Source: Halopenitus malekzadehii (GTDB taxonomy: Archaea; Halobacteriota; Halobacteria; Halobacteriales; Haloferacaceae). From it: 64,000 nt of DNA. Each line of letters begins with the position of its first letter. The first letter of the stretch is position 1. Both the position numbers and the translations under genes were made by a program. Shown one piece after another: positions 11,270 through 24,189 of the stretch. The stretch is from the NCBI RefSeq assembly GCF_900108505.1, contig NZ_FNWU01000002.1:124001-188000 (forward strand). Reading direction: 5' to 3'. The notes below the pieces were generated by a model. The model made no database searches. It had not been told where the DNA came from and saw only the letters and a list, made by a program, of their open reading frames with translations.

Positions 11270-12406
11270 TCACTCCGACGGGGGCGTCGCCGCCGCCGCC
11301 TCGCCGTCGTCCCGCTGTGTCGCGACCGCCGCGCGCTGCAGGTCGTCGATCCGGGGGACGTCGGTGACGTTCGAGAGGACGACGAGCGCTTCGAGCGTGG
11401 ACGACCGATCGCGGGGGTCGTCGCCGGCCAGGATCTCGACGGTGTCGGCCTCCTCCTCGAGCCACTGGCGAGCGCTCTCGAACCCGCGCCGGGAGAACGC
11501 CGACGGCGGCCCGGACAACACGACCAGCGCCCGTTCCGCGCTGGCGACGTCGCAGGGAACCGTCAACCGCGACGTGGTCGCCTGCTGGACGAGCGAGTTG
11601 ACCTTCGCGGCGTCGGTCGTCCGGTCGGCCGGCTCGTCGGGATCGTACCCGAACCACGACAGCAGGCGGGCGAACAGCCCCGCCCCCCCCGACACCACGT
11701 CGGTCGTGGCGTGGCCGATCGAGACGATCCCGCCCGGCTCGAGGGTCCGAACCACGTCGCTCGAGTCGACCGCGTTCTCGGCGATCGTGTTCGAGTCGCG
11801 TTCGCCGGCGGCGAACAGGGTACAGATACGCCGTGCGAGCGCCCGCGTCGCGTCCTCGCCGTTCTCGGCCTCCGGTTTGAGCCAGGCGTCGTGATCGAAG
11901 GTGATCGTGCTTGCCGCCGCCGGAACGATGGTCCGGATCGCGCGGGCGGCGTTGAGCGCCGCCGCGTCACCGTCCTCGTCGGCCGGCAGAACGCCGAGCG
12001 CGTATACCGGTTCGTCGTAGGTCGCCTGCAGTTCCTCGACGAGCACCGACCCGGCCCCGCTGCCGGTCGCGCTTCCGAGTCCCGCGGCGACGAGGACGCC
12101 GTCGGCGTCGTAGACGTCGATCGCATCCAGCGCACGGCGTATCTCCGGCAGATCGCCCCGCGTCACCTCGGCGGCGATGTCGGGACCGCCATCGACGCCG
12201 TCGACCGTGACCTGCGGATGGGTGTCGCCGATCAGGACGCGCCGGTCCTCGGGAACCGTCTCGACGTCGTCGGTCGGCGACCGGGAGATGTCACAGACGA
12301 TCGCGTTCCCGCCGGTGAACGTGCGGCCGGTTTCGGCCTCGATCTCCCGGATGCAGTCGACGACCCGACTCCCGGTGGCGCCGACGCCGACGAGTGCGAG
12401 CTCCAT
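11270..12406 (-). CDS. CetZ-type tubulin/FtsZ-family GTPase, divergent paralogue
   Basis: 378-aa CetZ-like protein of the tubulin/FtsZ superfamily, cytoskeletal GTPases that control cell shape in haloarchaea. It opens with ALVGVGATGSRVVD. The glycine-rich tubulin signature is altered to GLGSATGSGAGSV, while the T7-loop region NAVDSSDVVRTL keeps the N-x-x-D-S-S-D pattern of its neighbour. Late motifs ALVVLSGPPSAFSRRGFE and EILAGDDPRDRSS match those of the upstream paralogue. Second gene of a two-gene operon, 3 bp after the stop of the first. The altered glycine loop suggests weaker or specialised GTP binding (inference). Confidence 0.87.
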   Translation of the reverse strand: MELALVGVGATGSRVVDCIREIEAETGRTFTGGNAIVCDISRSPTDDVETVPEDRRVLIGDTHPQVTVDGVDGGPDIAAEVTRGDLPEIRRALDAIDVYDADGVLVAAGLGSATGSGAGSVLVEELQATYDEPVYALGVLPADEDGDAAALNAARAIRTIVPAAASTITFDHDAWLKPEAENGEDATRALARRICTLFAAGERDSNTIAENAVDSSDVVRTLEPGGIVSIGHATTDVVSGGAGLFARLLSWFGYDPDEPADRTTDAAKVNSLVQQATTSRLTVPCDVASAERALVVLSGPPSAFSRRGFESARQWLEEEADTVEILAGDDPRDRSSTLEALVVLSNVTDVPRIDDLQRAAVATQRDDGEAAAATPPSE

Positions 12407-12409
12407 CGG

Positions 12410-13591
12410 TTAGACGACGGGGTCGAGGTCGTTGTTCTCGTCGGTGATCAGGTCGTTGATCTCCTCCTCGCGGACGGCCTCCTGCTCGGCGATCTTCTCC
12501 TGGGCGTCGACCGCCTGGTTCTGGATCTCGTTGATCCGCGGGGTCTCCGTGACGTTCGAGAGGAGCACCGCCGCCGCGAGCTGGGGGGATTTCCCTCGCG
12601 GATCGTCGCCGACGAGCACCTCGACGGTGTCCGCTTCCTGTTCGAGCCACTGGCGCGCGCTCTCGATACCCTTCCGGGAGAACTCGCTTGGCGGCCCCGA
12701 GAGGACGACGAGCGCGCGGTCGGCGCTCGAGATCTCGGCGGGCACCGTGAGCCGGGAGTTGACCGCCCGGCGGACGAGCCCCTGGATCTTCGTCGCCTTG
12801 CTGCCCTCGTCCGCCGACTCCGCCCGGTCGGTGCTCCAGCGGTCGAGCAGGCCGCCGGTGGCGGCGTCGTTGTCCACCTCGGTGGCGGCGTAGCCGATCG
12901 TCGAGACGCCGCCGGTGTCGAGCGTCCGGATGATGTCGCTTGAGTCCATCGCGTTCTCGGCGACCTCGGAGTCGTCCGTCTCGCCGGCCGCAAGCAGGGT
13001 CACGAGCCGGGCCGCGAGCTCGCGGTTCATCTGCTCGTATCCCTCCTCGATCGTCTGTTCGCGGGCGCGCCAAGCGTCGTTGTCGAAGCCGATGAAGTTG
13101 TCGACCTTGGTGACGAACGACTGCAGCGACCGGGCCGCGTTCAGCGCCGGGCGGCCGCCCTCGTACTTGCCGGGCAGCACGCCGAGCCCGTAGACCGGCT
13201 CGTCGTACATCTCCTGGAGGGTGTCGATCACGACCGGACCGCCGCCGCTGCCCGATCCGCCGCCGAGTCCCGCGACGACGAGGAGGGCGTCGACCTCGTG
13301 GATCTCGACGTCGTCGAACGCGCGGCGGATCTCCTCGATGTCGGCCTTCGCGACCTCGGCGCCGACCTCGACGTCGCCGCCGACGCCGTGACCCTTGGCT
13401 TTCTGGTTCGTGTCGCCGATGAGGACGCGCCGGTCCTCGGGGATGTAATCCGGCTTCGCGAGGTCCGTCCGCGCGGTGTTGATCGCGTGGACGTGCTGAC
13501 AGAGGTTCCGATCGGTTTGGGATTCGAACTCGAGCATCCGGTCGACGATCTTGCTCCCGGCGTTCCCGACGCCGATCGTGGCGAGCTTCAT
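12410..13591 (-). CDS. CetZ-type tubulin/FtsZ-family GTPase
   Basis: 393-aa CetZ family protein. N-terminal nucleotide loop ATIGVGNAGSKIVDRM, tubulin signature GLGGGSGSGGGPVV (about residues 105-118), LGVLPGKYEGG, and the T7 loop NAMDSSDIIRTLD, which supplies the catalytic acidic residues to the neighbouring subunit in polymers. C-terminal segment VVLSGPPSEFSRKGIE and VLVGDDPRGKSP. First gene of the tandem pair. CetZ proteins are known in Haloferax to control cell shape and motility; which CetZ subgroup this is cannot be assigned here. Confidence 0.9.
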   Translation of the reverse strand: MKLATIGVGNAGSKIVDRMLEFESQTDRNLCQHVHAINTARTDLAKPDYIPEDRRVLIGDTNQKAKGHGVGGDVEVGAEVAKADIEEIRRAFDDVEIHEVDALLVVAGLGGGSGSGGGPVVIDTLQEMYDEPVYGLGVLPGKYEGGRPALNAARSLQSFVTKVDNFIGFDNDAWRAREQTIEEGYEQMNRELAARLVTLLAAGETDDSEVAENAMDSSDIIRTLDTGGVSTIGYAATEVDNDAATGGLLDRWSTDRAESADEGSKATKIQGLVRRAVNSRLTVPAEISSADRALVVLSGPPSEFSRKGIESARQWLEQEADTVEVLVGDDPRGKSPQLAAAVLLSNVTETPRINEIQNQAVDAQEKIAEQEAVREEEINDLITDENNDLDPVV

Positions 13592-14819: not shown

Positions 14820-15521
14820 ATGGCTAGCCCCGACGACGGCTTCACCGCCCAGATCCTGTTGTACGACGGCTTCGACGAACTCGACGCGATCGGTCCCTAC
14901 GAAGCACTCGCGATCGCCGGCGAGATCCTGGCGGACGCCGATCCGGCGGACTCACCCGACGCCCACGCGCCGTCGGCACTCACCGTCGAGTACGTCACGC
15001 TCGAACCGCGCGAGCGCGTAGTCGCGAGCCACGGCACACGCATCGAGCCGGACGGCGTGCTTGCGGTCCCCTCGGAGGGCGAATCGGCGGCGTCGAATCC
15101 GGATCTCCTCGTCATTCCGGGCGGCGGCTGGACCGCACGCGATCCGGACGCGAGTGCGTGGGCGGAGGCCCAACGCGGCGCGATCCCCGACGCGCTCGCC
15201 GCGATCGCCGGAACGAGCGTACGGCTCGCGTCGGTGTGTACCGGCACGATGCTGCTCGCGACGGCGGGGATCACGGACGGCCGGCGGGCCGTCACGCACG
15301 CGAGCGCGCTTGAGGATCTTCGTGAATCGGGCGCGACGGTGGTCGACGCCCGGGTCGTCGACGACGGCGACGTCGTGAGCGCCGGCGGGATCACCTCCGG
15401 AATCGACCTGGGGATCTACCTCGTCCGGGACGTTCTCGGAGGGACGATCGCCGACCGGGTGGCGACGCGGCTCGAGTACACGCCCCAGGGAACCGTGGCC
15501 GGTCGGGACGAATCCGACTGA
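14820..15521 (+). CDS. DJ-1/PfpI family protein
   Basis: 233-aa class I glutamine-amidotransferase-like protein of the DJ-1/ThiJ/PfpI family. Motifs: ILLYDGFDELDAIGPYEAL at the N-terminus, LLVIPGGGW, the nucleophile elbow ASVCTGTMLLATAG with Cys140, then GRRAVTHASA and GGITSGIDLGIYLVRD. This arrangement matches the AraC-associated/isonitrile hydratase-like subgroup, but there is no DNA-binding domain. Its exact activity is unknown. The stop codon is also the first three bases of a 26-bp tandem repeat array. Confidence 0.88.
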   Translation: MASPDDGFTAQILLYDGFDELDAIGPYEALAIAGEILADADPADSPDAHAPSALTVEYVTLEPRERVVASHGTRIEPDGVLAVPSEGESAASNPDLLVIPGGGWTARDPDASAWAEAQRGAIPDALAAIAGTSVRLASVCTGTMLLATAGITDGRRAVTHASALEDLRESGATVVDARVVDDGDVVSAGGITSGIDLGIYLVRDVLGGTIADRVATRLEYTPQGTVAGRDESD

Positions 15522-15742
15522 CGACGGTCGGCGGGGAAACGGCTTGACGACGGTCGGCGGGGAAACGGCTTGACGACGGTCGGCGGGGAAACGGCTTGAC
15601 GACGGTCGGCGGGGAAACGGCTTGACGACGGTCGGCGGGGAAACGGCTTGACGACGGTCGGCGGGGAAACGGCTTGACGACGGTCGGCGGGGAAACGGCT
15701 TGACGACGGTCGGCGGGGAAACGGCTTGACGACGGTCGGCGG
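15519..15742. repeat. 26-bp perfect tandem repeat, eight units plus a partial
   Basis: The unit is tgacgacggtcggcgggg followed by aaacggct (26 bp). Units begin at 15519, 15545, 15571, 15597, 15623, 15649, 15675 and 15701, with a 16-base partial copy from 15727. Copies appear identical. The first unit starts with the TGA stop of the DJ-1 gene. There are no spacers, so it is not a CRISPR array; 26 is not a multiple of three, so it is not an in-frame coding repeat. Confidence 0.97.
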
Positions 15743-15845
15743 AGGTAGTACGATCGCGGCCGCAGGGTGTGACACACGACGGGAATTCGCTTCGCGGGAA
15801 ACGATCGATCCCGTCACGGGCGGCCGATTCCGTATGAATGGCAGT

Positions 15846-15879: not shown

Positions 15880-16995
15880 ATGCCGCTTCGCCCAGCCGAC
15901 ACCGACCTGCTCGGGGAGATCGCCATCTCCATCGCGCGGGAGAACTACGGCTTTCTCTACGTCGACCGCGTGACCGAGGAGATCCGGGACCGATACGAGT
16001 CCGCGGACACCGGGCTGACGAAGGCGAGCAGCCTGAGTCGCTCGGAGATCAAGGAGTCGCTCCAGGAGATCGCCGGGCAGGAACACGAGGACTTCCGGCG
16101 GATCCGGTCGGGCGTCTACTACTATGACCTGTTCTCGACCGGTCACGACAATCGGGTCCCGAACCGACTCAAGGACCTGTTTCTGTCGACCCAACAGGTC
16201 GTCACCGCCGAACAGATACGCAACGAGTTCAACCTCGCCGTCGACGACGTGGAGTTCTTCGTCGACAAGCTGGTCTCGAACGACATGCTCTTCCGGATCG
16301 CGGCGGGCTCGCGGGAGTACTACTCGGTCGGGTCGTTGCTGAAGGAGCAGACGGGACAGAACCGGCTCGAGGACGAACTCAGGGAGCAGTCGCGCGGCAG
16401 CGAACCGCTGGGCATCCTGTCGCACGACGAGCTCGAGCAGATCATCTCGGTCAACGCGACCACCGACGTCATCCGATATCTGGAGGGTCAGCTCGGATTC
16501 CTTGCCGATCTCGACGGCGAATATCTGGTGTGGGGCGCCCTCGAGGACTACGGCCGGTGGATGGCCGAGGAGATCGCCGACGACGTGGTCGCGGAGTTCG
16601 ACGACGTCGGTCACGCGATGCCCACAAGCGAGTACCGCGAGGTCGTCACCGCCCGGATCGAGGGGCGGACGGACATCCTCGAGAACGTCAGCCGGGCTGA
16701 ACGCGACGACGTGATCGACGCGGTCGAGGAGGGCCTCCAGGCGGTCGTCGACGTCGACGTCGACGGCCGGATCGCGGTGCACCGCGAACCACTCGTCGAG
16801 GAGATCGACGCCCACGCTGAGAAGATCGTCTCGCCGCTGCTTGCCGACACCGCCGCCGCGACCCCCTCGGTGATGAAGGAGGAAGCCGAAGCCGAGATCG
16901 AGGGGCTCCGGCTCGCCGACAGCGAGGAGGCGAACCGCTACCTGAGAGAACAGGTCCGCGAGCGGGCCGACGCCAAGATCGAGGAGGCCTTTTAA
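15880..16995 (+). CDS. Tandem winged-helix-like protein, first gene of the AAA+ operon
   Basis: 371 aa from ATG 15880 (MPLRPADTDLLGEI); the earlier in-frame start adds 14 unlikely residues. I do not recognise a named family. By eye there are three successive winged-helix-like units: about residues 8-90 ending in FRRIRSGVYYYDLF, about 95-150 (STQQVVTAEQIRNEFNL to FRIAAGSREYYSVG), and about 175-225 (ILSHDELEQIISVNATTDV to DLDGEYLVWG), each ending in a beta-wing-like strand pair. The C-terminal third is helical and acidic. Tandem winged helices occur in ESCRT-II and in other scaffold proteins, so a structural or adaptor role is a guess. Gene 1 of a tight operon; the next ATG is 3 bp after the stop. 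Confidence 0.75.
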   Translation: MPLRPADTDLLGEIAISIARENYGFLYVDRVTEEIRDRYESADTGLTKASSLSRSEIKESLQEIAGQEHEDFRRIRSGVYYYDLFSTGHDNRVPNRLKDLFLSTQQVVTAEQIRNEFNLAVDDVEFFVDKLVSNDMLFRIAAGSREYYSVGSLLKEQTGQNRLEDELREQSRGSEPLGILSHDELEQIISVNATTDVIRYLEGQLGFLADLDGEYLVWGALEDYGRWMAEEIADDVVAEFDDVGHAMPTSEYREVVTARIEGRTDILENVSRAERDDVIDAVEEGLQAVVDVDVDGRIAVHREPLVEEIDAHAEKIVSPLLADTAAATPSVMKEEAEAEIEGLRLADSEEANRYLREQVRERADAKIEEAF

Positions 16996-16998
16996 CCA

Positions 16999-18015
16999 AT
17001 GCGAACCAGATTCAGCGACTTCACGACCAACGAACAGAACGGAACGACCTTCGTCACGGCGGTTCCCCAAAGCAGCGCGGACGAGCCCGTCCGTTTCGAC
17101 GCGAGCATCGCCGATCAGGGTTCCGACGACGACCCGCAGGCCAACTGGGAGGAGATAATCGCCACGCTCGCCCAGGGACACCTCGGTAACGAACTGCTGA
17201 TCGAGGGGGGACGCGGCGTGATGGACAAGGAGGTCGCCATCGAGGCGCTCGTCGAGTCGGACGCCGAACACGTCCGGAACGAGCACGCCGCCCACGCCGT
17301 CCTCGAGTACCTCGACGACCAGGACATCGTCTCCATCGACGGCGAGGAGGTCGTCGTGTTGCTCTCCTACGAGCAGATCCGTGAGGAGGGATCGAGCTCG
17401 ATGCTCAACAACTGGGCGGCGACCCTCGACGCCTGCGTCGAGCGGATCGACTCCGCGATCGAGCGGGTCAAACAGAACCAGGAGACGCTCCAACAGCACT
17501 TCGAGGACCTCTCGGACACCCAGAACCTCGAGCAGGAGTACGCCCAGAAGGCCGACGAGCTGAAACAGGAGATGAAGGGGCTGCTGGCCGGGCGGATGCC
17601 CTCCGAACTCGCCGACGACGAGAAACGGCGGTTCGAGATGCTCCGCAAGCGGTACCACCGCTACGAGATGTTCGAGGAGAAGGCCGCCTCGCCGGTCGCG
17701 GAGACGCAAGGACCGGAGATCCTCGGGGCCGTCGTCGAGGACATGGAGAACATCAAGCTGCTGTTGATGGACCAAAGCCAGGAGTTCCGCAAGCTGGCGC
17801 TCTCGGAGAACTTCACCGAAAGCGGCGCGCTCCAGGACCTCGAGAACCTCGAGAGCTTCGTCGCGGAGTTCGGCGACGTCACCGAGCCGAGCGAGCAGAT
17901 GGAGGAGAAATCCGACGACGAGTTCGTCGAGGATCTGTTCGATATGCGCGAATCGACGACCACCGAGGAGGTCCAACAGCTTGACGAAGACGCGACGCTC
18001 GAGACGACACGGTAA
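16999..18015 (+). CDS. Winged-helix plus coiled-coil protein (ESCRT-III-like organisation?)
   Basis: 338 aa, unknown family. A disordered start is followed by a winged-helix-like unit at about residues 49-125 (NWEEIIATLAQGHLG to DIVSIDGEEVVVLLS). Then come long charged helices with coiled-coil character at about 133-280, including NQETLQQHFEDLSDTQNLEQEY, and a Glu/Asp-rich C-terminal tail from about 290 (MEEKSDDEFVEDLFDMRES). A helical core followed by an acidic tail with a short hydrophobic motif is how ESCRT-III/CdvB proteins are built, and their tails bind the Vps4 AAA ATPase. A AAA ATPase is encoded two genes later. This is resemblance of layout, not a demonstrated homology. Confidence 0.72.
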   Translation: MRTRFSDFTTNEQNGTTFVTAVPQSSADEPVRFDASIADQGSDDDPQANWEEIIATLAQGHLGNELLIEGGRGVMDKEVAIEALVESDAEHVRNEHAAHAVLEYLDDQDIVSIDGEEVVVLLSYEQIREEGSSSMLNNWAATLDACVERIDSAIERVKQNQETLQQHFEDLSDTQNLEQEYAQKADELKQEMKGLLAGRMPSELADDEKRRFEMLRKRYHRYEMFEEKAASPVAETQGPEILGAVVEDMENIKLLLMDQSQEFRKLALSENFTESGALQDLENLESFVAEFGDVTEPSEQMEEKSDDEFVEDLFDMRESTTTEEVQQLDEDATLETTR

Positions 18016-18021
18016 GGCGGG

Positions 18022-18780
18022 ATGTTCGCTGCATCGTTCCTCGGGACCTTGCGGCACGCACGGAACCGGACCACGGCGGAGCTGCGGAAGCGGCGGTATG
18101 ACGACGCCGACGACGAGGCCTGGCGCGTCGTCGAGGACGCCCTGGATGCGGTCTGTGACCTCGTCGAGCTGAGCCTCCATGGCGTTCCGCTGCCGCCGGC
18201 CGCCGCAACCGGCGGGACTGCCTCACGGGACGCCGACGAGGCGATCGCGGCGCTCCTCGACCGGCGCTTCGAACGCGATCCCTGGAGCGACGGGGATCCC
18301 CCGCGGCCACCGACTGCCGCGGTCGAGACCGAGGACGAGAACGGTGACGAGGCTGAGGACGTTGATGAGGGCGAGGACGGTGACGGCACCGAGGACGGTG
18401 ACGAGGCCGGGAGCGACCGTGAGGACCTGGCTCCCGACCGGATCGAAACGGTGGCGGGGACGACGATCGTGCCGCTATCGAGGACCGGCCCGCGGGCGGC
18501 GAACTGGGACGTCCTCTTCGATCGGCTGGTCACCCACGCGATCGCGGTGACGACCGAGTGTCGAAAGCTGGCCGGCAGACAACGCATCGACGGCGCCACC
18601 GACCTGGCGGCCGCCTGGGAGGGCGTCGCGGACCTGCTCGGCGATCTCGCGTCGTTCATCGCGTTCGTCCGCCGGGCGGCCGCCTGGACGAACGACCCGG
18701 ACCCGGAGACGATCGACCGCTCGGAGGCCGCGTTCTCGGCCGCCCGGGCGTTGACCGACGAGACGACGACCACGACATGA
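18022..18780 (+). CDS. Uncharacterised protein with Asp/Glu-rich linker
   Basis: 252 aa, no recognised family. An N-terminal helical part (about residues 1-85) and a C-terminal helical part (about 145-250, including NWDVLFDRLVTHAIAV and WEGVADLLGDLASFIAFV) are joined by a low-complexity Glu/Asp/Gly linker. The GC-rich repeats in that linker are typical of slipping. Translation is tightly linked to the next gene: the AAA ATPase start overlaps this stop as ATGA. Probably a partner of the ATPase. Confidence 0.7.
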   Translation: MFAASFLGTLRHARNRTTAELRKRRYDDADDEAWRVVEDALDAVCDLVELSLHGVPLPPAAATGGTASRDADEAIAALLDRRFERDPWSDGDPPRPPTAAVETEDENGDEAEDVDEGEDGDGTEDGDEAGSDREDLAPDRIETVAGTTIVPLSRTGPRAANWDVLFDRLVTHAIAVTTECRKLAGRQRIDGATDLAAAWEGVADLLGDLASFIAFVRRAAAWTNDPDPETIDRSEAAFSAARALTDETTTTT

Positions 18781-20609
18781 CACGGAACAATCTCAACCCG
18801 ATCAAGACCGACGATCAACCGACGTCGCACATCCGCGTCGGGGCGAGCAAGGTCGGCGCCGACGCCGAGCTCGTCGAGGTCATCCACAACGACCGGAGCG
18901 CGTACTTCCGCGTCGAGACCGAGGACGACCAGATCGTGAGCAACATCGGCAACAAAGCCTACATCAACGCCAACGTCGAGCACCTCTTCGGCGGGATCGA
19001 CTTCTCGGGCGGGGACAAGTTCGTCGTGGACGGCAACGCGAGCCTCGCGTCGGTTCCCGCGGCGGACTCGGCGACCATCCACCCGAAGACGGTCGCGCCG
19101 GACGTCCTCGAGGAGTACCTCCGGTCGGCGGAGTACCTCCTCCACCGGATCGAGGAGGTCGCCGAGATCCGGGGATCGCTCGTCCGGTTCACCGTCTCCG
19201 AGGCCGACCCCGGCGCCTACTCGACGCTCCGGATCACGGAGGACACCGACCTGGAGTTCGTCGACGAACCCGCGGAGCCGCCCCAACAGCCGGCCGGCGC
19301 GCGCGGCGGCGCGGGGCAACGCGGCGGTCCGGGCGCCCCCGGTGGACCGGGTGGCGGTGCGGGCGCCCCCGGCGGTGGCGGCGAGCGACCGGACGAGGGG
19401 ACGACCGTTTCCATCGAGCCGACCGTCCCGACCGTGAACCTGGAGGAGGACGTCGCCGGCCTCGAGTCGGTTAAGGAAACGGCACGAATGCTGCTTGCCC
19501 TCTTCGACACCGAGGTGCGCGACCGGATCGTCGAGATGTACGGCGAGGAGTTCGCCGAGCGCGGCGGCAGCATGTTGTTGTACGGTCCGCCGGGCTGCGG
19601 CAAGACGCACGTCTCGGAGGCGATCGCCCACGAGGCCAAACACGAAACCGGGATCGAGGACCAGTACGGCGAGGTGGTCTTTCTAGAGATCCGCGGCAGC
19701 GACATCCAGTCGAAATACGCCGGCGAGGCCGAAAAGAACGTGAGCGCCGTCTTCTCACAGGCCCACCGGATAGCGAAGGAGGAGGGGTTCGCGGTCCTCT
19801 TTTTCGACGAGATCGAGACGCTCATCCCCGACCGCAGTGACGACAACCTCCAGCGACACGAACGCGCGTTGACGAACGCGTTCCTCCAGGAGATGAACGA
19901 CGTCGAGGACAACCTGCTCGTGATCGGCGCGACGAACATGCCCTTCACGATCGACCCGGCGGCGACCCGGCGGTTCCCGATCCAGCAGTTCATCGAACAG
20001 CCGGACGAGCGCGTGATGTCGGAGGTCTGGCGCACCCAGCTCGCCTCGCTGCGGAACACCGACGACATCGACTTCGAGCGGCTCGGCGAGGCGTCCGTCG
20101 GCTACACCCCGGCGGAGGTGGCCGACCGCATTCTCGGGAGCGACCTCCAGCGTGAGCTCATCCGCAGCGTGATCGAGGGCGATCCCCAGGAGGTGACCAC
20201 CGAGTACCTCCTCGACCGTCTCGAGGGGACCGAGCCGAAGACGGTCAGGCAGTACGTCTCGAGCGTCCGTGAGCAGCTCGACGACTTGGAGGGCTATCCG
20301 GAGATGCGCGATTACGTCCACGAACAGGCCGACGAGCTCGGGATCGACCTGCAGGGTGGTCCCGGCGCCGGCGGCGGCGCGCTCTCCTCGCTGCTTGCCG
20401 ACCAGGACGGGGGTACAGGCGAGGACGAGGGAGGGAGCGCGGCCGTGGGATCCGATGGTGGTGATGCCGAACCCGGTGACGGGTCAGCCGGGGATGGTGC
20501 GATCGGGGCCGAATCGGCCGAATCGGCCGGAGCGGGGTCACCCAGCCCGACCGGAGATGGTCCGGTCAGCAACGCGGGCACGGGCACGACCGATCGGGGT
20601 GACGAGTGA
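18777..20609 (+). CDS. Single-ring AAA+ ATPase with novel N-domain and Gly/Pro linker
   Basis: 610 aa. Residues 1-165 are a mostly beta N-domain of unknown family, followed by a Gly/Pro/Ala-rich linker (about 165-205). The AAA module has Walker A GPPGCGKT at residues 270-277, a pore-loop motif SKYAGEAEKN, Walker B VLFFDEIETL (about 338-347), sensor 1 IGATNMPFTIDP and the arginine-finger pair TRRF. This is the classic Cdc48/Vps4/katanin clade pattern with one AAA ring. A disordered Gly/Asp/Glu/Ser tail ends the protein. It would be expected to unfold or disassemble protein assemblies. No MIT domain is seen, which argues against a simple Vps4 orthologue. Overlaps both neighbours (ATGA before, TGATG after). 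Confidence 0.85.
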   Translation: MTRNNLNPIKTDDQPTSHIRVGASKVGADAELVEVIHNDRSAYFRVETEDDQIVSNIGNKAYINANVEHLFGGIDFSGGDKFVVDGNASLASVPAADSATIHPKTVAPDVLEEYLRSAEYLLHRIEEVAEIRGSLVRFTVSEADPGAYSTLRITEDTDLEFVDEPAEPPQQPAGARGGAGQRGGPGAPGGPGGGAGAPGGGGERPDEGTTVSIEPTVPTVNLEEDVAGLESVKETARMLLALFDTEVRDRIVEMYGEEFAERGGSMLLYGPPGCGKTHVSEAIAHEAKHETGIEDQYGEVVFLEIRGSDIQSKYAGEAEKNVSAVFSQAHRIAKEEGFAVLFFDEIETLIPDRSDDNLQRHERALTNAFLQEMNDVEDNLLVIGATNMPFTIDPAATRRFPIQQFIEQPDERVMSEVWRTQLASLRNTDDIDFERLGEASVGYTPAEVADRILGSDLQRELIRSVIEGDPQEVTTEYLLDRLEGTEPKTVRQYVSSVREQLDDLEGYPEMRDYVHEQADELGIDLQGGPGAGGGALSSLLADQDGGTGEDEGGSAAVGSDGGDAEPGDGSAGDGAIGAESAESAGAGSPSPTGDGPVSNAGTGTTDRGDE

Positions 20610-23332
20610 TGCCGGCCGGGACGGCCGAGTACGTCCGGACGTCCTCCTTCGAGGTCGGCGAACTCGACGCGTGGGCGGTCTCCGGCGATCGCGTCTGCAT
20701 CCTCGCCAACGGGACGGAGGTGTACGTCGTCGGCGAGGAGCGCGATCAGATAACTCTTCCCGAACCCGCCGAAAGCGTCGCGTTGAGCGACCACCTCTAC
20801 GCCGTCACCGACGACGGCGTCGACGCCTACAGCCTGTCGGGGACGCGACTGTGGCGGGTCTCGCTCCCGGAGGCGGTCCGCGTGGCTGCTCCCGGGGAAA
20901 GCGGGTTCGCGGTCGTCGTGACTGAGGACGACGAGCTGGTCGGCCTGGACGCGACGAGCGGCCAGGAGCGGTTCCGCGTCGACCGTCCCCACTCGGACGT
21001 CTCGGCGACGCCGGCGGTCGTCTGCACCGACGACGCGCTCGTGTTGGCCGCGTGGTCGTTTCTGTCGGTGTTGGGGCCGACCGGGGAGAGCCGGCTGCAG
21101 GAGCGCGTCGATGGCGCGATAAGCGACCTCGGGGTCGTCGGCGACACGATCGTCTGCGTGATGAAGGACGCCCGCTGTGTCGGGATCGACATCGAGACCG
21201 GCGAGCGGAAGTGGAGCCACGACTGGCAGGTCGATCGGATCGATCCCTTCGGTCGCGAGGAGATCATCCTCCGGACCGAGGGGGAAATCCGCGCGATCGA
21301 CGCCGAGGGCGAGTGGACGCCGCTCGGACTCGATGACGGCCTCCCGGTGACCGCCGCCGGCGGCGAGCCGGTCTGTGTGATCGTCGACACGGTCGCGAAC
21401 GTCTACCGCCGCCTCTCCGGGGAGTGGACGCTTGATGCGACCCTGCTGTCGGAGTCGCTGACCGCCGGTGCCGAGGCGATCCACGCGGAGCTGCACAACG
21501 TCGGCGACACTGCCGCCTCCGCCACGATCGCGATCGAACTGTCCGGCGCCCGGTGTTCGGATCCGACCCACCGGGTGACGCTCCTCGAGGACGACTCCGA
21601 GCGGGTCCGATTTCCGCTGTCGTCGATCGACGAGGAGACGGTTGATCTCACGATCACGGCGGACGAGGAGGTGATCCTCGAGGAGCGACTCCCGGTCACG
21701 GGCGGCAGCGAGTCGATCGACGTGACCGTCGAGCCGACGCGATTGACCCCGGAGGGACTCCGCGTGTCGGTGACGCTCGCGAACGAGACGAGCGTTCCCG
21801 TCGAGGACGTTCGGATCAACCCGATGGGCGAGCGCGTCGACCGGATCGACCCGAACGACGCCGTCACGCGCACCCTCGAGGCGCCGGCGGACGGAACGCT
21901 CACGATCGCCGATGCGACCGGCATCCGACGGACCGTCGACGTCCCCCGCCCGGAGGATCCGCTCTCAGCCAGCGGGTCCGTCGAGGAGGACGTCCTCGCG
22001 GTGCGGGTTCGCAACGACTCGCGGGCGACGGTCGTCGACGAGCTGACGATCGACGGCGACGCGCTTCCGACGTCGATCACGCGGACCTTCGAGGGCGCTC
22101 CCGAGAGCGTGCTGGAGCTGGTCGCCCCGCCCGTCGAGGACGGGACGAGCACGGTGTCGGTGGCCGGGCACTTCCTCGACGCCGACGTCGACCTCGAGAT
22201 CCCGGAGTCGGCGGTCCTGAACGCCGCCACCGGAACGCACGCGCCACCGGCAGCCGCTCCCGACGGGAGTGCTCCCGGCGGAACGCCCGGAGGCCACAGC
22301 GCCGGCGGCGCCGGCGGCGCTCACGGCGACGCCGGGCCCGGAACCGGCGACCTCGAACTGGAACGCCGGATCGATCCCCTGCCGCCGATCGTGGGCGATC
22401 TCTGCATCGAGCATATCGACGTCGAGAACGTCGGCCACGGTCCCGAATCGGTCACCGTGACTACGCCCGACGCCGCGCCGGTGACGGAGACGATCCGTCC
22501 CGGGGAGTTCCGCACGTTCACCCGACTCCACGCCTTTACCGGCGTGGGCGACGACGTCGTCCCGCCGGTGGCCGTCGAAAGCGGCGGCGTCGAACGGACG
22601 GCGGGGGAGCTCGATACCGAACTCGAGATCCCGGAGTTGTACTGCCGGGGACTGCTGCTCCCCGACCGTGACGGGTACACCCTCGAGGTGACGGCGGTCA
22701 ACACCGCCGAGAGCCGGCTCCGCGTGCGCGATCTCGAGCTCGAGCTCTACGAGTTCCGTGAACCGCCCGCGGAGATCCACGTCCCGCCCTACGAGGAGGT
22801 GACGGCGACCTACCGGGTCGATGGTCCCGACCCGAGCACCGTCGGCGGCTACGATACCGTGCGCTACGTCGCCGACGGGTCGGTCGCGCCCGCCCGCGAC
22901 CTGGAGGTGCTCGTCGAGGCTCCGGTGGACGGGCCGGACGGGCTCGCCACGCTCACGGTCGCCGTCGATCCGGAGACGGCGCTCGATGCCGACGGCGGGA
23001 CGGTCGCGATCGCCGTCGAAAACGACGGCGGGGCCACGGTGACCGACCTGTCGATCGCCGCCCGCGGCGATCAGGTCCGGACGATCCTCTATGAGGCCGA
23101 CGACGTTCCCGAGCTCGGTCCCGGCGAGACCCACGTCCACTACGTCGACATCGAGACCGCCGAGGACGGGCTCGACGTGGCGCTCGACGTCGCCGGAACC
23201 GTCGGCGGCGCCGACCACGAGGAGACGATGTCGGTGGTCGGATCGCCGGAATCGGTCTCGATCGACCGCGAGACGGGCCGGAGCGGACCGGACCACTCCC
23301 CGCGCGTCTCGACCGACTTCGCGGTCGAGTAG
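20609..23332 (+). CDS. Beta-propeller plus Ig-like repeat protein of the AAA+ operon
   Basis: 907 aa. The first ~265 residues form a PQQ/WD-like beta-propeller, shown by repeats such as LYAVTDDGVDAYSLSGTRLW, LVGLDATSGQERFRV and CVGIDIETGERKWSHDW. The remainder is a series of all-beta CARDB/Ig-like segments (for example VRVRNDSRATVVDELTIDG and IAVENDGGATVTDLSIAA), interrupted near residues 545-585 by an Ala/Gly/Pro/His-rich stretch. There is no signal peptide or membrane helix, so it appears cytoplasmic despite its extracellular-looking domains. It probably acts as a scaffold or substrate receptor for the AAA ATPase. ATG 20609 overlaps the ATPase stop by one base (TGATG); a GTG at 20606 is an alternative. 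Confidence 0.8.
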   Translation: MPAGTAEYVRTSSFEVGELDAWAVSGDRVCILANGTEVYVVGEERDQITLPEPAESVALSDHLYAVTDDGVDAYSLSGTRLWRVSLPEAVRVAAPGESGFAVVVTEDDELVGLDATSGQERFRVDRPHSDVSATPAVVCTDDALVLAAWSFLSVLGPTGESRLQERVDGAISDLGVVGDTIVCVMKDARCVGIDIETGERKWSHDWQVDRIDPFGREEIILRTEGEIRAIDAEGEWTPLGLDDGLPVTAAGGEPVCVIVDTVANVYRRLSGEWTLDATLLSESLTAGAEAIHAELHNVGDTAASATIAIELSGARCSDPTHRVTLLEDDSERVRFPLSSIDEETVDLTITADEEVILEERLPVTGGSESIDVTVEPTRLTPEGLRVSVTLANETSVPVEDVRINPMGERVDRIDPNDAVTRTLEAPADGTLTIADATGIRRTVDVPRPEDPLSASGSVEEDVLAVRVRNDSRATVVDELTIDGDALPTSITRTFEGAPESVLELVAPPVEDGTSTVSVAGHFLDADVDLEIPESAVLNAATGTHAPPAAAPDGSAPGGTPGGHSAGGAGGAHGDAGPGTGDLELERRIDPLPPIVGDLCIEHIDVENVGHGPESVTVTTPDAAPVTETIRPGEFRTFTRLHAFTGVGDDVVPPVAVESGGVERTAGELDTELEIPELYCRGLLLPDRDGYTLEVTAVNTAESRLRVRDLELELYEFREPPAEIHVPPYEEVTATYRVDGPDPSTVGGYDTVRYVADGSVAPARDLEVLVEAPVDGPDGLATLTVAVDPETALDADGGTVAIAVENDGGATVTDLSIAARGDQVRTILYEADDVPELGPGETHVHYVDIETAEDGLDVALDVAGTVGGADHEETMSVVGSPESVSIDRETGRSGPDHSPRVSTDFAVE

Positions 23333-23462: not shown

Positions 23463-23816
23463 ATGGAACCCGATGGCGACGTGCGCGTGTTGGAAGACAC
23501 GGAACGGCGCTTTGCGGACGGCACCGTTCTCCGTGTCCGCGTGCTGGCTGTGCCGGAGTCGGGGAAGTTTCCGGACGGCGTCAAGTACCGTCTTCATTAC
23601 GGAACCGAAGACGGCGAGACTCTGATCCGGTACGACAACTCCCACGGAGTGCACGAACGACACACGCCCGATGGGCTCGACGACGACTACGGCTTCCCCG
23701 GCTACGACGCCGTCCAAGAGCGCTTCTGGGTCGCGGTCGAACGGTTGCACGCGGAGGGAAGCCACCACAGGACAACAGCAAACTATGACACCGAACACGC
23801 TCATCGTGACGGTTGA
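23463..23816 (+). CDS. TumE-like (DUF6516) toxin candidate
   Basis: 117 aa. The core LHYGTEDGETLIRYDNSHGVHERH has the strand pattern and the R-x-D-N-x-x-H motif of the TumE/DUF6516 family, small proteins reported as toxins whose cognate antitoxin TumA is a helix-turn-helix protein. It overlaps the following HTH gene by 32 bases in another frame, so the two are co-expressed. A palindrome covers its promoter. The family placement is from motif memory. Confidence 0.65.
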   Translation: MEPDGDVRVLEDTERRFADGTVLRVRVLAVPESGKFPDGVKYRLHYGTEDGETLIRYDNSHGVHERHTPDGLDDDYGFPGYDAVQERFWVAVERLHAEGSHHRTTANYDTEHAHRDG

Positions 23817-24189
23817 ATCGATCGGCACCGTCCAGCAGCGCACTACCGAGGCGTTCCGGCAGGCGCTTGCTGGCGACGGCCCCGAGGAAGACGCTCCACA
23901 CCGGCTGAGCTTCGAAACCACCGACCAGCTGGCGCAGGTCTTCACGCCGCGCGCGATCGACCTCCTTCAGGCGATCGCGCAAGCGGAGCCCGCGAGCATC
24001 CGCGAGGCCGCCCGGCTGGTCGGTCGGGACGTCAAGCAGGTCTCGGAGAACCTCGAACGGCTCGAAGCATACGACGTCGTGGAGTTCGTTGCGGAGGGGC
24101 GAGCGAAGCGCCCCGTCGTCCCCTACGACGAGATCGACATTCGGCTTCCGCTTCGGGGGACTGCGGAACGGGACGTTGCCCCGGCGTAG
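23785..24189 (+). CDS. HTH regulator, TumA-like antitoxin candidate
   Basis: 134 aa from ATG 23785, which lies inside the toxin gene. The C-terminal half is a winged/helix-turn-helix DNA-binding domain: IDLLQAIAQAEPASIREAARLVGRDVKQVSENLERLEAYDVVEFV, a MarR/HTH_24-like pattern. It would neutralise the partner and repress through the palindrome upstream. Stop at 24187-24189. Confidence 0.75.
   Translation: MTPNTLIVTVESIGTVQQRTTEAFRQALAGDGPEEDAPHRLSFETTDQLAQVFTPRAIDLLQAIAQAEPASIREAARLVGRDVKQVSENLERLEAYDVVEFVAEGRAKRPVVPYDEIDIRLPLRGTAERDVAPA

Follow-up and report, generated by a model that had tools for sequence, protein, structure and literature searches.

This report concerns a five-gene operon at positions 15880-23332 of a 64,000-nucleotide stretch of the Halopenitus malekzadehii genome (hereafter the window, meaning the whole stretch that was analyzed). 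We propose, with a probability of roughly 0.42, that these genes form the cytosolic half of a two-operon, ~16-gene haloarchaeal machine, in which a membrane-anchored assembly of tubulin-family GTPases would be remodeled by an AAA ATPase ring. An earlier note on the window had described an uncharacterized AAA+ operon with a parts list resembling the endosomal sorting complexes required for transport (ESCRT). Its five genes are half of the system, and the operon for the tubulin-family and membrane proteins lies outside the window. The ESCRT idea itself matches a published prediction, and "uncharacterized" proved half right: the locus type and the ESCRT proposal were published for Halobacteriales under the name Halo_adaptin, in the passages of Makarova et al. 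(2024, mBio, PMC10936438) that describe it. Taken as a whole, the earlier interpretation is partly supported.

All five genes lie on the same strand, and all reading frames were confirmed. As the earlier note had stated, they overlap or nearly abut, with gaps of 3 and 6 nt followed by 4-nt overlaps. The operon starts at a conserved MPLRP methionine (15880), in favor of which the start of a longer open reading frame (ORF) at 15838 was rejected. The genes are as follows.

Gene 1, 15880..16995, + strand: four tandem winged-helix units, an arCOG11740-like adaptor (alignment, AlphaFold2 model, fold matches)
Gene 2, 16999..18015, + strand: winged helix, long helical bundle, and acidic tail, arCOG11741-like (alignment, AlphaFold2)
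Gene 3, 18022..18780, + strand: helical protein bearing a small wing and a helical hairpin of 33+32 residues (AlphaFold2, profile comparison)
Gene 4, 18777..20609, + strand: single-ring AAA ATPase with a Vps4-side cassette and a Cdc48/VAT-type N-domain, without MIT
Gene 5, 20606..23332, + strand: cytosolic PQQ/WD40-like beta-propeller with immunoglobulin (Ig, CARDB-like) repeats, "adaptin-like"

The set recurs in related genomes. A search with gene 2 found it in 20 of the 194 Halobacteria genomes sampled, counting the window's own, and the gene 1 profile returned the same 20 (12 of 65 genera). In each of the other 19, whose neighborhoods were read, genes 1 and 2 sit side by side, and genes 4 and 5 follow in 18 of these; in the nineteenth (G161) the contig ends and the set continues on a second contig. 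Gene 3 was recognized by its sequence in 17 of the 19, as well as on the second contig of G161, and G014 leaves enough room for it between genes 2 and 4. Linkage of the genes across Halobacteria, rather than in a single genome, is thus supported, and since the relatives keep the same order, chance is ruled out as the source of the arrangement. In a phylum-wide sample of 345 genomes, gene 1 gave seven matches, all within the window's own order and none beyond it. The named relatives include Halopenitus persicus (96% for gene 1); the others belong to Halorussus, Halobaculum, Haloarchaeobius, Natronomonas, Natrinema, Halorubrum, and Halobiforma. The set is also carried on plasmids, namely PHS2 of Halobacterium salinarum R1 and those of three Halobaculum species and one Natrinema. 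The patchiness of its spread across Halobacteria suggests transfer or repeated loss.

In most relatives, the five-gene operon converges with an adjoining second operon of ~11 genes. In the window's genome, this partner operon sits ~63 kb downstream on the same contig (G000:C26), at ~210.0-228.2 kb compared with 139.9-147.3 kb for the five genes. The same split was seen in the two remaining genomes of the genus. The partner operon was present in 17 of the 17 genomes first examined and in G161, G145, and G038, thus in all 20 that carry the five-gene set. Its features are given below for the 11-gene operon of H. salinarum R1, where transmembrane (TM) segments and signal peptides were called by hydropathy.

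g6: 900 aa, Ig repeats, C-terminal TM segment
g7: 329 aa, signal and TM segment
g8: 917 aa, TM segment at 420-438 with a further part behind it
g9: tubulin/FtsZ GTPase family (PF00091)
g10: 690 aa, N-terminal TM segment
g11 and g12: membrane proteins
g13: tubulin/FtsZ GTPase family (PF00091)
g14: between g13 and g15
g15: tubulin/FtsZ GTPase family (PF00091)
g16: TM-rich N-terminus

TM segments and signal-peptide-like N-termini occur in g6-g8, g10-g12, and g16, while g9, g13, and g15 each match PF00091 above its cut-off. Like CetZ, the latter three are haloarchaeal members of the tubulin superfamily; unlike CetZ, they form three separate clades outside that family, on branches of ~1.7-2.2 changes per column (a quick tree, with Shimodaira-Hasegawa-like approximate likelihood ratio support only). 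The two operons also go together by distribution. All 20 genomes with gene 1 possess g9, which is found in 22 of the 194 genomes and in just 2 of the 174 without gene 1 (hypergeometric 2.7e-25, a value that ignores the kinship of the genomes).

Gene 4 is a classical AAA protein (PF00004, 9.6e-30) with one cassette, and the two motifs that the earlier note had pointed out were confirmed: Walker A at residues 270-277 (GPPGCGKT) and the SKYAGEAEKN pore loop, which starts at 312. In addition, FFDEIE is present from 342. A place on the Vps4 side is supported by an IQ-TREE phylogeny containing four Vps4 rows and leaving out katanin and spastin, where a branch with 99/97 support places the gene 4 family and MIT-bearing Vps4 on one side and Cdc48 D1, Cdc48 D2, and PAN on the other; a grouping of the family with Cdc48 D2 was rejected (approximately unbiased test, p-AU 0.006). 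The N-terminal part tells a different story from the cassette. CDC48_2 matches were found in 13 of 30 family members (best 7.3e-5), and hhalign detected a 33-column stretch common to the gene 4 N-domain and Cdc48 N-domains (P 2.7e-4), while the N-termini of MIT-bearing Vps4 proteins gave no match (P 0.79). These comparisons agree with the earlier statement that MIT is lacking, and they support the view that a Cdc48/VAT-type N-domain stands in its place.

Gene 5 completes the cytosolic side. It contains a PQQ_2/BamB propeller (1.6e-11) and CARDB-like Ig repeats (6e-4), and a hydropathy scan found no signal peptide, the one borderline hydrophobic stretch lying inside the propeller. This is in line with its original description as a cytoplasmic propeller/Ig protein.

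Based on these features, we infer the following course of events. The tubulin-like GTPases g9, g13, and g15 would build an assembly at the inner face of the membrane, held there by the membrane proteins g6-g8, g10-g12, and g16, whose Ig parts may face the surface layer. Adaptors that link the assembly or load it with cargo would be supplied by genes 1-3 (winged-helix proteins) and gene 5 (the propeller/Ig protein). The ATPase ring might then grip a component via its N-domain and pull it through the pore by means of the SKYAG loop, thereby disassembling or resetting the assembly. The likely output would be local membrane budding or surface-protein sorting. Cell division is not the expected role, since most haloarchaea lack the system and its carriers also have other CetZ/FtsZ-family genes. 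In favor of this proposal we count the five-gene synteny in 20 genomes and in plasmid records, the partner operon, the co-occurrence of gene 1 and g9, the tubulin clades, the TM and signal predictions, the AAA phylogeny, and the CDC48_2 matches. In addition, vesicle formation and protein sorting were independently predicted for Halo_adaptin, according to the relevant part of PMC10936438.

Several observations weigh against it. First, the three tubulin-family GTPases need not all polymerize, as the standard GGGTG[ST]G loop motif is missing from g15. Second, the ATPase is no strict requirement: two genomes (G042 and G048) have neither genes 1-4 nor g14-g16 at the locus and yet retain a gene-5-like propeller together with g6-g10 and g13, hence the tubulins g9 and g13 and membrane genes; g11 was detected in G048 only. 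Third, the branch leading to the gene 4 family is long (2.2 changes per column), and its placement in the tree could thus be pulled. Lastly, we found no experiment on the system.

A true ESCRT machine is an unlikely competitor. Here, genes 1 and 2 would supply ESCRT-II-like adaptors, gene 3 a diverged filament protein of the ESCRT-III kind, and gene 4 a Vps4 that strips neck-constricting filaments, leaving the tubulins as accessories. In its favor, gene 4 falls with Vps4. The Halo_adaptin description in PMC10936438 adds a Vps36-like winged-helix pair and, for the gene that precedes the ATPase gene, a weak similarity to PspA, the counterpart of gene 3 having been published there as a derived ESCRT-III. 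The case can be followed through genes 1-3, none of which has a usable Pfam match.

Gene 1, which had been called a tandem winged-helix protein, does consist of winged helices, yet the AlphaFold2 model (built with related rows) contains four successive units and not two (~8-82, 92-150, 162-217, and 218-301; predicted local distance difference test score, pLDDT, mostly 70-96). The family has 42 invariant columns in a 14-row alignment. ESCRT-II (Vps36/Vps22) is indeed among its fold matches (2zme_B, Z 9.1 over 140 residues, root-mean-square deviation (rmsd) 6.8), and Foldseek returned 2zme_A at E 0.005. However, SelB, UFL1, and MarR-type proteins match the fold as well or better, and for that reason the tandem winged helices alone are not specific enough to make gene 1 an ESCRT-II protein. 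A PDB profile search with gene 1 gave nothing significant, and no profile homology to genes 2 or 3 was seen.

For gene 2, the winged helix and helical part that had been proposed both stand, as the model shows one winged helix and a bundle of 4-5 helices, to which it adds an N-terminal beta part. An invariant NW motif at 138-139 heads the first long helix (32-row alignment). Snf7 and PspA are absent from the listed family matches of gene 2, and hhalign of its family with haloarchaeal PspA covered 36 columns at P 0.008.

Gene 3 is helical, as had been said, but the acidic linker in the earlier description is a lineage insertion, most of which is missing in relatives. Acidic tails are ordinary in haloarchaeal proteins. 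The model (pLDDT 79.7) comprises three N-terminal helices and a small beta wing, then a C-terminal 33+32-residue hairpin; the fold looked for in ESCRT-III proteins (Snf7/CdvB/PspA) is a long N-terminal alpha1-alpha2 hairpin. Snf7/CHMP1B chains do occur in its VIA list (Z 5.0-5.5), which speaks for an ESCRT-III relation; they are no better than unrelated bundles, though, with ribosome recycling factor, de novo bundles, MukF, and Sso2 all ranking above them and an rmsd above 15 in two of three. The top VIA matches themselves, MukF (Z 11.0) and Sso2 (Z 10.1), were rejected as typical of helical bundles. Foldseek found nothing better than E 1.4, and a PDB profile search returned designed helical proteins and binders only (E 0.02 or worse). 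None of 18 gene 3 family members has a Snf7 or PspA_IM30 Pfam match, and hhalign of the family with 30 haloarchaeal PspA proteins gave P 0.21, which is background and similar to unrelated helical controls.

The best internal relation of gene 3 is the gene 2 family, with a weak in-register match that spans the wing and the helix headed by NW (hhalign P 0.007-0.017, probability 3-6%). Gene 3 is possibly a short paralogue of gene 2, which we offer as a suggestion only. In-frame two-gene read-through rows (A6) used for the MAFFT alignment aligned at the expected identities. Of the proposed ESCRT-like parts, the winged-helix adaptors (with their unspecific ESCRT-II matches) and the Vps4-side ATPase are thus supported, while the ESCRT-III-type helical filament protein is not. 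Together with the absence of MIT from gene 4, this makes a true ESCRT doubtful; genes 2 and 3 may nonetheless be extremely diverged relatives of the Snf7/PspA families.

It is also improbable, in our view, that the locus encodes a surface or cell-shape module, in which tubulin-like and Ig membrane proteins form a scaffold tied to the surface layer and the ATPase is a dedicated Cdc48-type unfoldase that removes or recycles misassembled subunits without any membrane cutting. The VAT/Cdc48-type N-domain and the secreted Ig/TM proteins of the partner operon would suit such a role, as would the shape control by CetZ in Haloferax (cited in the same part of PMC10936438) and the retention of the scaffold side without the ATPase in G042 and G048. 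On the other hand, ATPase and tubulins are closely coupled in all other genomes, and the AAA cassette groups with Vps4 and not with Cdc48 D2.

In a bolder and quite improbable variant, the ATPase would be an archaeal equivalent of katanin/spastin, its Vps4-side ring disassembling or severing filaments of the three tubulin-like GTPases at the membrane. Within the AAA proteins, the katanin and spastin families lie near Vps4. We know of no prokaryote in which a dedicated AAA remodeler is paired with a tubulin-family cytoskeleton, so that, if true, this case would be the first, linking ESCRT-type and microtubule-type AAA biology.

That the locus is a defense or inter-cell conflict system carried by mobile DNA, in which the AAA ring would serve as sensor or effector, is very unlikely: the patchy spread, the plasmids in Halobacterium, Halobaculum, and Natrinema, and a score of the AAA domain with PADLOC IetA (7.6e-27) point that way, but the PADLOC matches are limited to the shared AAA cassette, the best NCBIfam score of gene 4 is CdvC (113 bits), no effector or toxin domain was recognized in the two operons, and gene 1 has no relatives in viral contigs or phage records. 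A virus or phage origin was dropped on this last ground.

How does the machine we propose relate to known systems? Judged by its architecture, the window's operon is a Halo_adaptin system. As in the description in PMC10936438, the ATPase is preceded by a proximal winged-helix protein (arCOG11740), a protein with a winged helix and coiled coil (arCOG11741), and a small helical gene; it is itself Vps4-like with a VAT_N-type domain and no MIT, and is followed by an adaptin-like gene with PQQ and Ig parts. The further Ig, membrane, and CetZ/FtsZ-like genes are shared as well, on the same contig but non-adjacent here and adjacent in most relatives. The differences from that description are three tubulin-family proteins in place of the one named, a locus split by ~63 kb, four modeled winged helices in gene 1, and an ESCRT-III call for gene 3 that was not reproduced. 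With respect to the parts of that paper that treat Halo_adaptin, the three tubulins, their near-strict co-occurrence with the five genes, and the split locus are new; novelty is limited, since the core proposal was already published.

Canonical ESCRT/Cdv systems (CdvA-CdvB-CdvC; Vps4 with ESCRT-III) share the single-ring Vps4-side AAA cassette and the winged-helix adaptors, but here an MIT domain and a detectable ESCRT-III protein are lacking, and tubulin-family GTPases and Ig/TM surface proteins are present instead. Cdc48/VAT/p97 has in common the CDC48_2-type piece of the N-domain and a pore-loop AAA ring, yet possesses two rings, not one. The FtsZl1 system (Makarova and Koonin 2010, PMC2875224) is likewise predicted to remodel membranes with a divergent tubulin and accessory membrane proteins. 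The components named alongside FtsZl1 are vWA proteins, kinases, and a distinct GTPase, with no AAA remodeler among them, whereas the present system has its ATPase. We rejected FtsZl1 membership, as the tubulins are of the PF00091 type, g9, g13, and g15 all stay below the Tubulin_2 (PF13809) cut-off (g13 being a weak match, 21.7 compared with 27 bits), and none of ten R1 partner proteins scanned has a vWA match.

By combining a Vps4-side AAA ATPase with surface Ig proteins and three distinct tubulin-superfamily GTPases, one prokaryotic system would bring together the ESCRT-type and tubulin-type cytoskeletal worlds. It provides a testable setting for the question of how Vps4, katanin, and Cdc48 gained their substrates. 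The three tubulins, the co-occurrence, and the split locus make for a sharper, testable hypothesis. In H. salinarum R1 the locus is on a plasmid and therefore deletable and taggable.

Some further observations concern related loci and the operon's surroundings. The variant locus of G048 (L130 9111-20000, L131 1-13461) adjoins a 1157-aa Tubulin_2 (PF13809) gene and multi-TM genes, a neighborhood resembling an FtsZl1-type system, so that two tubulin systems are neighbors there. The G042 locus (L126-L127) is followed on the other strand by unexplained ORFs of 743 and 1000 aa. Partial gene-2-like proteins (~140-210 aligned residues) occur off the five-gene locus in G123, G146, and G138 (L051, L052, and L053, respectively), and the other four genes were not detected near them.

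Within the window, two adjacent CetZ genes at 11270-13591 (- strand; PF21011, 1.7e-53 and 3.9e-65), the first without the usual GGGTGSG loop, were rejected as members of the system, since a genome without genes 1, 2, and g9 (G034) carries a homologous pair; they are probably unrelated to the system. Rfam and tRNA scans of the window gave no matches. About 140 bp upstream of the operon start lies a perfect 26-bp tandem repeat (15519-15742, 8.6 copies, 100% identical, unit TGACGACGGTCGGCGGGGAAACGGCT), and a different 33-bp repeat is found at the corresponding place in a related genome (L032 8568-8663). Immediately after the operon (23463-24189, + strand), genes matching the TumE toxin (PF20126) and an HVO_A0114 family protein form a possible toxin-antitoxin-like pair.

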